The position numbers and the translations under genes were made by a program. Of a stretch of 64,000 bases of DNA, positions 7,979 to 20,900 are shown piece after piece. Source of the DNA: Bacteroidota bacterium. GTDB lineage: Bacteria > Bacteroidota > Bacteroidia > NS11-12g > UBA9320. Every line of letters starts with the position of its first letter. The first letter of the stretch is position 1. The stretch spans positions 1 through 64,000 of the forward strand of contig JABIUV010000027.1 in assembly GCA_018700895.1 (NCBI GenBank). Reading direction: 5' to 3'. The notes beneath the pieces are model-generated. The model had not been told where the DNA came from and did not search any database. It saw only the letters and a program-made list of their open reading frames with translations.

Positions 7979-8452
7979 TTAATTCAATTGTTCTTTTTCT
8001 TCAGGTGATAGACCGAAGTCCCGAGCTATTTTAGTTTTTAATGGTCTGAAGTACAGGATAAAAACCCCTGCCATAAGCCCGTAAAGTAGCAGATTTAATC
8101 TGCCCGAAAGATAAAACAACACCGCCCCAAATAGTGCAGTACCTGTGAGCATAGCCCATAGTATTACCATGCCAGATTTATACGCTTCTAGTTTTACGGA
8201 GAGTTTTTCATCTTTAGCGATTTGTTTCATTCGTTTATTTATTAAGTACCGTGCACCAAAAAAAGATGCTACTCCTATGATAGGTAGAATTAACTCTAGC
8301 ACCATATAATCTAAAGAAGGGGAAAGTTGCTTCCCACTCTGTACGGTGAGCGTATATAATACTCCCATTGTAATCGCTACAATGAAGCTGATGGTAAGGT
8401 GTACAATCGTCATAGACTTGATTATACCTTTAGTTGTTACATTATTACTCAT
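7979..8452 (-). CDS. small integral membrane protein, unknown function
   Basis: 157 residues with four likely membrane helices, at about 15-33, 47-65, 95-112 and 116-135. A basic cytoplasmic loop lies between helices 2 and 3, and the tail is charged (ARDFGLSPEEKEQLN). I do not recognise a named family. Its ATG overlaps the parC stop by 4 nt, so it is translationally coupled to topoisomerase IV, and the DUF4442 gene follows within 3 nt. The coupling may be accidental operon growth. Confidence 0.75.
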   Translation of the reverse strand: MSNNVTTKGIIKSMTIVHLTISFIVAITMGVLYTLTVQSGKQLSPSLDYMVLELILPIIGVASFFGARYLINKRMKQIAKDEKLSVKLEAYKSGMVILWAMLTGTALFGAVLFYLSGRLNLLLYGLMAGVFILYFRPLKTKIARDFGLSPEEKEQLN

Positions 8453-18243: not shown

Positions 18244-19284
18244 TTACCTCTCTTCGTCAAACCAAAGCGTATAGTATTTACGGCCATTTTCGTCTTCTCC
18301 GCGTTCTATCTTATTACGGTCACCGTGCACGTATACGGAGAAGTTTTTGTCTAGTTTTATTACACTTTTGAAAACGCCCTTTTTCTTATTCACGGCCGTC
18401 TCATTCAGATCGAAACTTTCGGGTATACTTACTGCTCGCTCTCGTTGGTAAGACGTAGTATAATCTTGAAAGGTATCTACAATATCAGGTTGCTGCAGCA
18501 CCACATTGGCAAATTCAGATAGATCAAACTGCTCTTGTTCTTTGAAATAGTCCGCAGACTTATTGAGCATATCTGCTTGGTCTGCCTTGTCTGCCGCAAA
18601 CTCCTTAGGTAATTCCTTGGTGATAAATTCCTTAGCAAGGTTCATCACTGTTTCGGTTTGATAATAGGCGTCTTCTCGCTGTTTTACGTGTAGAAAGAGG
18701 TCAAACCAAAACTTCGCATCACCTCCTTTGTTGGTATTGTCTATCACACTTAGCGTGTAGCCTTTTTCTTTTTCGGAGTTGAATATTATGGCTCCCTTGT
18801 CTAGCTTTTTGATGTGTATGCCTTCTTGGCTGCTAATGCTGAAGCTGCCATCCTCCTGCAGCACATCTAAGAAAGTGTCTTTAACTTCCGATTTGAAAAG
18901 CCCAATAGCATCTACTGCTTCTCCTTCTAGTAGTACATCTTTGATGTAGGCGACATAAAATTCTCCACCTTTTATTTTGGGATGATTTCCTTGCTCGTAT
19001 AGGTGTTTAGCAATACTGCGGGAGTGTGCTACTAAGTCCTCTGGGTTGGTGAATATTGCTTCTGCATAGGCAAAGACTTCATTGAGGTTGATGTGAGACT
19101 CATGATGGAATCGGTAGTATTCGTTTTCCTTAAATGAAGATAGGAAGTAGGTAAGGAGGTCTTCTTCTACTTCATCGCTATATTGGAGTTTTGTGTTGCC
19201 TAGTGTGAGTAGCTCTTCGTTGAATGAGTTTCCTACGTAGTGCAGCACTACATCTTGTATTTTAGTATCTGAGTATGCGAGCAT
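18244..19284 (-). CDS. nucleoid-associated protein, NdpA/NA37 family
   Basis: 346 residues matching the 37-kDa nucleoid-associated family (E. coli YejK/NdpA). Family features include the N-terminal ILHYVGN-like strand, GGEFYVAYIKDV in the middle, KGYTLSVIDNTNKGGDAKFW, and a C-terminal DNA-binding portion with SVYVHGDRNKIERG. E. coli NdpA binds the nucleoid and has been linked to RNA polymerase or topology effects; its role is poorly defined. It starts 1 nt after the DUF3307 stop, so it is the last gene of a three-gene operon led by the SatD-family gene. The link of the three functions is inference. Confidence 0.88.
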   Translation of the reverse strand: MLAYSDTKIQDVVLHYVGNSFNEELLTLGNTKLQYSDEVEEDLLTYFLSSFKENEYYRFHHESHINLNEVFAYAEAIFTNPEDLVAHSRSIAKHLYEQGNHPKIKGGEFYVAYIKDVLLEGEAVDAIGLFKSEVKDTFLDVLQEDGSFSISSQEGIHIKKLDKGAIIFNSEKEKGYTLSVIDNTNKGGDAKFWFDLFLHVKQREDAYYQTETVMNLAKEFITKELPKEFAADKADQADMLNKSADYFKEQEQFDLSEFANVVLQQPDIVDTFQDYTTSYQRERAVSIPESFDLNETAVNKKKGVFKSVIKLDKNFSVYVHGDRNKIERGEDENGRKYYTLWFDEER

Positions 19285-19285
19285 T

Positions 19286-20008
19286 TTAGTTTATTTCTTT
19301 TAGTTTGATGTACAGTATCCCAAAGACCATAGCCAAACCAAAGCTTAGCAGCGTCCCTATGAGCATATATTCTGTTAATTTTCTGTTTTTGGCCTCTGAT
19401 AGGTCTCCAAAGCGAAAAGCTGATTTAGCGGCTATAAGTAGTCCTATAGCAGACCATTGGTTTAGTATTACAAAGGTAAATACTAATAAACGCTCTAGTA
19501 TTCCGATGAACTTGCCCGCTGACTGTAATGATTTGTTATTCTCTTTATCTATGTCCTTATCCCAGTTTTGAAGCAGTACACGCATTATAATAGAAGATAC
19601 CACGGTTGCCATGAGCGTCAGTGTCGCTAGTAGCATGTTATTCGGATTTATGATATCCGTTAGAGGAATAGCTAGTTCTGTGCAGATTATGACGAGCATG
19701 TAGAGTATAGCTATATGCAGTGCTTGGTCTACAAAAAATAGGATTTTAGCATTGCTTTTATTCTGAATATGGAGCTTGCCAAGGTCTATGAGGTAGTGTG
19801 ATATCACTATGGGAATGGTTATCCATAGGAAGCTGGACTGTAGCAGTAACAATAGCCCAAGAGTACATACCCCATGGATAGCTATATGAATGTATAAATA
19901 TTTAGACTTCTGTTTGTTGGCCTCCTTATGAGTGACCCATTTGCTAGACTGAAACACGAAATCTCCTAGTACGTGTGCCAATAGTATGGCAGTGAAGAGT
20001 CCTAACAT
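19286..20008 (-). CDS. DUF3307 polytopic membrane protein
   Basis: 240 residues with about seven membrane helices. The N-terminus reads LLAHVLGDFVFQ (H12, D16, Q20), a DUF3307 hallmark. H41 and H45 and the motif HYLIDLGKLH (H71, D75, K78) follow. Such conserved His/Asp residues inside membrane helices suggest a metal-dependent membrane enzyme or channel, but no activity is known to me. Its start overlaps the satD stop by 7 nt and its stop abuts ndpA, so it is translationally coupled to both. Confidence 0.85.
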   Translation of the reverse strand: MLGLFTAILLAHVLGDFVFQSSKWVTHKEANKQKSKYLYIHIAIHGVCTLGLLLLLQSSFLWITIPIVISHYLIDLGKLHIQNKSNAKILFFVDQALHIAILYMLVIICTELAIPLTDIINPNNMLLATLTLMATVVSSIIMRVLLQNWDKDIDKENNKSLQSAGKFIGILERLLVFTFVILNQWSAIGLLIAAKSAFRFGDLSEAKNRKLTEYMLIGTLLSFGLAMVFGILYIKLKEIN

Positions 20009-20607
20009 CTTTCGGTTATTCTATATTCAAAATGACGGATTAACTTCATAAGCTCTTGGTATCCAGATCTTTTGAGTCCAGCACTTATATTGCTTTGTGA
20101 TTTTTTTATTTTTTTAGCCAGTTCTAGCTGACTCATATCTTGATTTTGAAGTGCTGTCTTAAAGATAAAAGCATTGGTAGCACTCCAACTATCAGCGGTG
20201 AGTAGGCCTAGTCCTATAGCCATATTAATCTCATTATCTAGCTCCGCCCACGGGCTTTTTACCTCTAGAGTGCTTTTTAGAGTATTGAAACAATCTCCAG
20301 AATTTTCAAATGCCGTGCCGTTGGATTCTGTAATTTTGGGAGCAGCATACGTTTTATCTCCTATGCCTATAGCTATGCGTACATCCAGTTCTCTGTGCTG
20401 CTTTATCTCTGATTTTATAAATAGAGCAGCGTGTAATGCTGCTTTAGCATCTACTTCTAGCTGAAAACTATCGCCTCGGTATATCTCCCATGTTTTAGGC
20501 GATTTACCAAATGTGTTGAGTGTCTTCTTCAGTGTTTTTACCCATTCAGATGCATCTACACTTCGTGAATTTACAATGTCACCCGATAGTATTGCTGTTA
20601 CATCCAT
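20002..20607 (-). CDS. SatD-family protein: cyclase-like domain plus helix-turn-helix
   Basis: 201 residues. Residues 1-140 match the SatD family, named from the streptococcal acid-tolerance locus. I also see a pattern like class III nucleotide cyclases: LSGDIVNS (D10), YRGDSF (D46), VRIAIGIGD, and FENSGDCFN (E101, N108), matching the spacing of the two metal aspartates and the base/transition-state residues. The usual arginine after N108 is absent; K111 is nearby. Residues 155-195 form a helix-turn-helix (QLELAKKIKKSQSNISAGLK). It heads an operon with DUF3307 and ndpA. Three operator-like repeats and a -7 box only 5-6 nt before the ATG suggest autoregulation and a leaderless mRNA. The cyclase reading is my inference. 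Confidence 0.78.
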   Translation of the reverse strand: MDVTAILSGDIVNSRSVDASEWVKTLKKTLNTFGKSPKTWEIYRGDSFQLEVDAKAALHAALFIKSEIKQHRELDVRIAIGIGDKTYAAPKITESNGTAFENSGDCFNTLKSTLEVKSPWAELDNEINMAIGLGLLTADSWSATNAFIFKTALQNQDMSQLELAKKIKKSQSNISAGLKRSGYQELMKLIRHFEYRITERC

Positions 20608-20612
20608 TCCTA

Positions 20613-20620
20613 CAAATGTA
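20613..20620 (-). promoter_or_regulatory. -7 promoter box for the satD operon
   Basis: TACATTTG on the minus strand is a full consensus match. Only 5 nt separate it from the ATG at 20607, so transcription should start at or very near the start codon. The nearest repeat begins 4 nt upstream of it. Confidence 0.6.
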
Positions 20621-20624
20621 TTTA

Positions 20625-20702
20625 ATTATATGCGAAAAAGCAGATATTATTGATTATATGCGAAAAAGCAGATATTTTGAATTATATGCGAAAAAGCAGA
20701 TA
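20625..20702. promoter_or_regulatory. three phased operator-like direct repeats upstream of satD
   Basis: Three identical 22-bp copies lie at 20625-20646, 20653-20674 and 20681-20702, with an exact 28-bp period and 6-bp spacers of different sequence. Each contains the near-palindrome ATATGCGAAAAAGCAGAT, with half-sites ATATGC and GCAGAT around a GAAAAA centre. They cover the -33 region of the satD promoter. They look like binding sites for a dimeric regulator; SatD's own HTH is the obvious candidate. Confidence 0.85.
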
Positions 20703-20842
20703 ATTAGGTTTTGGGTGACTACGGACTCAATATGCTTTACTGCATGTTAATTATCTGATTTTTAGGTCGTATTTTGATTTGTTTAATCAATTTTTATTTA
20801 ACCCGGATTTAGAGGAATTTATTGAAATTTACGTACCCACAT

Positions 20843-20879
20843 AAAACAAAATGCCCCAAACTAAAGCTTGAGGGCATAA
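20843..20879 (-). terminator. terminator of pckA
   Basis: On the minus strand ATGCCC ... GGGCAT (20872-20877 with 20851-20856) is followed by TTTTGTTTTATG. It lies 22 nt past the pckA stop. The remaining 20703-20842 is AT-rich and holds no gene. Confidence 0.65.
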
Positions 20880-20900
20880 TGGGGGATAATACTGCTCTAA

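Follow-up and report, generated by a model that had tools for sequence, protein, structure and literature searches.

In the Panoptes system (optSE), a minimal palm cyclase (mCpol) restrains a membrane effector (S-2TM-beta), and loss of the cyclase is lethal (PMC12657218, PMC12657230). The Pycsar system (PycC plus PycTM) likewise has a class III cyclase-type palm beside a membrane protein, and type II toxin-antitoxin modules provide a further template in which the regulator gene comes first and its product recognises palindromic operators in its own promoter. The SatD family (PF16264) takes its name from acid tolerance in S. mutans (cited in PMC11323703). A pangenome study of Tn-seq data from S. 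pyogenes reports a single accessory gene, satD (178 of 249 genomes), within the top quarter of essentiality scores, and it ranked with the most essential genes in every strain tested (PMC11323703); pneumococcal genes that are accessory and yet essential commonly encode antitoxins or phage repressors (PMC9519441). Our literature searches found nothing on SatD function beyond the sat naming and this essentiality in S. pyogenes, and found DUF3307 named only in a phage annotation table; a term search of PMC12657218, on Panoptes, gave no hit for SatD or DUF3307.

The gene pair considered here, satD-DUF3307, was examined starting from the window, the whole 64,000-nucleotide stretch of Bacteroidota DNA that was analysed, and by analogy its logic appears closest to that of Panoptes or of a type II toxin-antitoxin module. 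Like Panoptes, it is a sporadic, mobile two-gene operon encoding a small palm protein with two catalytic-type aspartates and then a membrane protein, and loss of its first gene is predicted to be harmful; unlike Panoptes, it combines a helix-turn-helix (HTH) domain and an operator array for SatD with a polytopic helical partner that has no nucleotide-binding soluble domain, and the cyclic dinucleotide synthesis performed by the Panoptes palm is for SatD a possibility that we infer. The likeness to Pycsar lies in the class III cyclase-type palm beside a membrane protein, whereas the PycC and PycTM models are unmatched and SatD is predicted to be an autoregulator. With type II toxin-antitoxin modules the pair shares a leading regulator gene, overlapping genes, accessory and plasmid-borne occurrence, a regulator that is essential where present (from the literature) and, as computed from arrays and covariation, palindromic operators at the regulator's own promoter, but the regulator domain of SatD is a predicted nucleotidyl-cyclase palm and the partner is a putatively toxic polytopic membrane protein. 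With the S. mutans sat genes it shares the family and its acid-tolerance naming, although the window SatD falls in an RGDSFQ branch and not in the GDEFQ branch of PF16264 proper. Because SatD carries an HTH with an operator array and DUF3307 lacks a nucleotide-binding domain, membership of the pair in Panoptes or Pycsar is not claimed.

An earlier note on this DNA had described three closely spaced minus-strand genes between uvrA and pckA, and the open reading frames of the window bear out their order, both flanks, the 7-nt overlap between satD and DUF3307 and the 1-nt gap between DUF3307 and the NA37 gene (Table 1). Its family assignments also hold for the latter two products, with firm Pfam matches for DUF3307 (E=6e-29, 101 bits, above the 23-bit cut-off) and for NA37 (E=1e-36, 127 bits). 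The window SatD scores 23.9 bits against PF16264 (E=3.8e-5), below the curated cut-off of 29 bits; this model matches at E<=1 in 13 of 26 diverse relatives and gives 110.9 bits with a haloarchaeal homologue. The window protein has the GD(I/L)..S and (R/L)GD(S/E)FQ motifs together with a C-terminal HTH, and is a diverged branch of PF16264 in which motif, architecture and partner are all retained. The HTH, which the note had also proposed, gives weak single-sequence matches at about residues 150-180 and is clear in the predicted structure and in relatives. Searched with the PADLOC 2023 defence models, the three window proteins gave no match beyond weak HTH ones, and none to PycC or PycTM.

Table 1. 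Features of the satD-DUF3307 locus (positions in the window)
Feature	Positions	Strand	Description
NA37/NdpA-like gene	18244..19284	-	346 aa; resident neighbour, outside the conserved unit
DUF3307 (PF11750)	19286..20008	-	240 aa; polytopic all-helical membrane protein
satD	20002..20607	-	201 aa; palm domain and C-terminal HTH
Inserted DNA, approximate extent	19285..20900	-	bounds from congener homology
Bacteroidota-type -7 box TACATTTG (TAnnTTTG)	20613..20620	-	window sequence; array/box geometry kept in relatives
Proximal operator	20627..20646	.	-7 box follows 6 nt after its end
Middle operator	20655..20674	.	28 bp from next
Distal operator	20683..20702	.	20-bp imperfect palindrome; minus strand TATCTGC-N6-GCATATA

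The conserved module consists of two genes, satD and DUF3307, and excludes NA37. Counting of neighbours, which the note had proposed as a check, showed that the two families do co-occur: DUF3307 lies directly downstream of satD in 104 of 109 SatD loci, most commonly with a 4-nt overlap, and a separate scan found the same adjacency in 80/80 further named genomes, a few of which may duplicate organisms of the 109-locus set. The order is also preserved in all 12 loci opened from a plasmid collection, with satD upstream of DUF3307 in Proteobacteria, Bacteroidota, Fusobacteria and Haloarchaea.

With high confidence, SatD is predicted to be a palm of the nucleotidyl-cyclase/GGDEF/Cas10 type fused to an HTH. 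The AlphaFold2 model (71 sequences; pLDDT 96.9) shows the beta-alpha-beta-beta-alpha-beta order of the palm fold, and its top Foldseek matches in the PDB (E down to 2e-4) are Cas10/Csm1, adenylate cyclases and GGDEF proteins, with cUMP synthases lower. In VIA-align, Z scores of 8-9 are reached by GTP cyclohydrolase III, adenylate/guanylate cyclases, GGDEF domains and Cas10, and the Y-family polymerase palm comes just below. A sequence-level PDB search returned no match for the palm and only weak ones for the HTH. Two aspartates form the expected metal-binding pair, D10 lying on strand 1 of the model and D46 in its strand 2-3 hairpin; they are conserved in 97% and 99% of 109 SatD sequences, respectively. 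In the sequence alignments, no conserved Asn/Arg pair corresponding to the class III transition-state residues is seen in the G97-G104 region; as these residues are not recognisable, catalysis by SatD may be absent. The Pycsar analogy drawn in the note thus gains a structural basis from the predicted cyclase palm of SatD.

The DUF3307 protein is modelled (pLDDT 91.8) as roughly nine bundled helices without a soluble domain, which agrees with its earlier description as a polytopic membrane protein. A nucleotide-binding beta-barrel, a CARF domain or a SAVED domain with 2TM was sought in this model and not found, and a PDB fold search returned nothing above noise. Near-invariant residues are distributed over both halves of the protein, with the polar positions H12, D16, Q20, H41, H71, D75, D94, Q95 and H98 in the first half and E172, R173, K195, R199 and E213 in the second; such a protein might act as an enzyme within the membrane or as a channel.

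Upstream of satD, the repeats that the note had seen at the promoter constitute an array of three 20-bp imperfect palindromes with a 28-nt period. Equivalent arrays precede satD in 161 of 192 loci as compared with 1% of shuffled sequences, so the window repeats are not a chance occurrence. Three copies with a period of 28 or 29 bp are usual, and the arrays extend to proteobacterial and haloarchaeal plasmids, with examples from E. coli pEC34A, Enterobacter, Pseudoalteromonas, Vibrio, Agrobacterium and Haloplanus; the palindrome sequence varies between loci while the spacing is constant. One locus has a long array of about seven palindromes with a 29-bp period (L106:7752-8000, before satD at 8001).

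Variation of the palindromes follows variation of the protein. In a set of 80 non-redundant loci, the strongest coupling to base 4 of the half-site is that of SatD residue 176 (z 13.8), and base 5 is coupled to residue 173 (z 12.6). These two positions, which belong to the predicted recognition helix (171-181), give the top signal among all columns, as against a maximum z of about 5 for the palm-domain columns that served as a control for relatedness. E176 is paired with C4 in 32/33 loci and other residues in 9/38, and among loci below 50% identity the corresponding counts are 4/4 and 4/21. This covariation of operator bases with the recognition helix makes binding of SatD to its own promoter very probable. 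In 34 loci the end of the array abuts or overlaps a TAnnTTTG box at two fixed offsets, compared with one match in an equal upstream stretch; in the window, 6 nt separate the array from the box and the satD start codon follows 5 nt after the box, and the satD mRNA is likely to be leaderless or near-leaderless. Judged from this array/promoter geometry, SatD most likely acts as a repressor. All three zero-mismatch operators in the 2.4-Mb genome are at satD, and there is a high probability that SatD is a dedicated regulator of its own operon. A wider SatD regulon in this genome was considered and rejected, one- and two-mismatch sites occurring at background level.

The pair is a horizontally mobile accessory module of bacteria and archaea. 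Within the Bacteroidota, satD or DUF3307 occurs in about a quarter of the sampled genomes (SatD in 98 of 395 by a profile built from six SatD proteins, DUF3307 in 95 of the same 395). The accessory status that the note had assigned to the block is confirmed for the pair, which one genome among the 19 in the genus carries, as do 3 of the 38 in the family. Its flanks comprise 334 neighbours in 184 families, and its genomic position is stable inside some genera. It is carried on plasmids of Vibrio, Segatella, Enterobacter, Pseudomonas, Sphingomonas, Agrobacterium and Salinivibrio, on a haloarchaeal plasmid, and on large Pseudoalteromonas and Fusobacterium replicons recorded as plasmids. ColE1-like plasmids of 3.8 and 4.4 kb in E. 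coli and Klebsiella (L144, L145) have the pair as their main cargo and would be useful natural test constructs. When the Enterobacter version was used as a DNA query, no pair was found in complete E. coli genomes. A phage origin was considered and set aside, as 50,697 phage records contain no match to SatD or DUF3307 and only five relatives occur in viral contigs; no SatD relatives of the GDEFQ branch were found in viral contigs.

Whether these genes lie in defence islands, as the note had suggested might be asked, receives a divided answer. On some plasmids the pair adjoins defence genes: one copy is directly beside a Pycsar operon (PycC 4e-183 plus a TM effector), and Gabija (GajA 3e-131, GajB 1e-232) and a ThsB-like (Thoeris-like) TIR gene are also among the plasmid neighbours. 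The immediate chromosomal neighbours in Bacteroidota, however, are not enriched in defence families: 4/103 match E1-E2 models and probably represent ThiF-like housekeeping genes, and 2/96 controls match other families.

Copies that have lost their partner tend to be altered, in counts that are small (three SatD orphans, and six solo DUF3307 genes of which three come from one clade). D10 is lost in two of the three clear SatD orphans, whereas paired SatD proteins keep it except in one misread frame; in both cases (L101:7980-8594 and L111:7980-8606) it is replaced by H or K while the HTH is kept, and the L111 protein also has D46 changed to N. A second SatD in a genome with a paired copy (L098:7989-8633) retains both aspartates and has no DUF3307 neighbour. 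Of the six solo DUF3307 genes, two are truncated and the others carry changes at positions that paired relatives retain, among them G165 and S196, or the K195/R199/E213 set. Four near-full-length DUF3307 genes lack SatD, and three of these (L260, L261 and L265) belong to one related clade, share G165E and S196A at intact length, and lie beside a ThiF-like gene and a thiazole-synthase-like sequence; their sequences are compatible with possible detoxification of DUF3307 after loss of SatD.

The reading that we favour, with a little better than even confidence, is that satD-DUF3307 works like a toxin-antitoxin or Panoptes-like guard module. SatD dimers would bind the 20-bp operators of the promoter-overlapping array through the C-terminal HTH and repress their own operon, while the N-terminal palm would bind metal and nucleotide and might make, hydrolyse or sense the nucleotide. 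DUF3307, as a membrane effector, would harm the cell unless restrained by SatD, either directly or via a nucleotide product, and would be freed once SatD or the nucleotide is lost or titrated, for example by phage infection or plasmid loss. What computation shows is the pairing of the genes, the insertion site, the accessory distribution, the palm fold, the operator array and the covariation with the recognition helix; the toxicity of DUF3307, nucleotide binding or synthesis, repression, and a role in defence or addiction are what we infer. The essentiality of satD in S. pyogenes, the patchy occurrence of the pair, its carriage on tiny plasmids and the decay of lone partners together suggest that SatD restrains a harmful partner. 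Against this reading stand the chromosomal neighbours, which are not enriched for defence, the persistence of near-full-length solo DUF3307 genes, the lack of recognisable class III transition-state residues in SatD, and a DUF3307 without a nucleotide-binding soluble domain or PDB match; the stable context within some genera is also compatible with a physiological function, for instance the acid tolerance reported for the S. mutans sat genes. More tentatively, and short of even confidence, the pair may represent a distinct and so far undescribed kind of defence or addiction system in bacteria and archaea, in which one palm-HTH protein reading a fixed 28/29-bp array couples nucleotide state and transcription to the freeing of a novel membrane effector.

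Toxin-antitoxin or guard behaviour of this kind would turn two widespread families lacking known function into one testable system. It offers a possible explanation of the S. pyogenes puzzle that satD is essential in every tested strain and missing from about 29% of genomes. Should the palm make a nucleotide, the pair would add to the Pycsar/CBASS/Panoptes group a class whose synthase is also a transcriptional repressor. The putative operator code, in which residue 173 reads base 5 and residue 176 base 4, would make binding sites predictable from protein sequence.

A one-component stress regulator, rather unlikely in our judgement, is the alternative that fares best. SatD would then be a repressor that senses nucleotide, a degenerate cyclase able to bind it and unable to make it, and would control DUF3307 as an ordinary, non-toxic membrane enzyme or transporter in acid or membrane stress. 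This accords with the S. mutans naming as cited in PMC11323703, with conserved intramembrane His, Asp and Gln residues in DUF3307 that are typical of an enzyme, with the transition-state residues not evident in SatD, and with a chromosomal position that is stable within genera and not among defence genes. However, a conditionally useful enzyme should not make its repressor essential in all carrier strains, and the 3.8-4.4-kb plasmids, the adjacency to Pycsar and Gabija and the decay of lone partners fit addiction or defence better.

A true Panoptes-like guard, in which SatD constitutively makes a specific cyclic nucleotide that holds DUF3307 shut until phage sponges or phosphodiesterases release it, is a narrower form of the favoured explanation and is unlikely. 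The two metal-type aspartates of the palm resemble D6/D57 of mCpol, the loss of D10 in orphans and the plasmid copy beside a Pycsar operon are in keeping with such a guard, and the essentiality of satD mirrors the need for OptS/mCpol. Yet DUF3307 has none of the beta-barrel, CARF or SAVED sensors of Panoptes effectors, the invariant SatD residues include no recognisable set for base selectivity or the transition state, and SatD has a DNA-binding domain, for which Panoptes has no need.

Finally, the three-gene stress or signalling module of the note, with the NA37 nucleoid protein as effector, is highly improbable and is rejected: for all the tight spacing and probable co-transcription in this genome, NA37 follows the pair in only 1 of 109 loci (that of the window itself) and in 0/80 further genomes, and congeners carry it alone at the same site. 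In four of these, the order pckA-NA37-uvrA is preserved without satD or DUF3307 in between, and homology to them ends at the 3' end of pckA and restarts at the NA37 start codon; in four other congeners pckA adjoins uvrA directly, with both NA37 and satD-DUF3307 missing. As NA37 occurs alone at this site in congeners, the sequence comparison indicates that the pair entered upstream of an already resident NA37, which may now be co-transcribed with it by accident. In the pair-less congener G019, the interval between pckA and NA37 contains AATAATCTGCTTTTTTGC (L252:1705-1722), which resembles one of the window operators at 16 of 18 bases and is possibly a relic of a cassette lost from the same site, though the resemblance could be due to chance.
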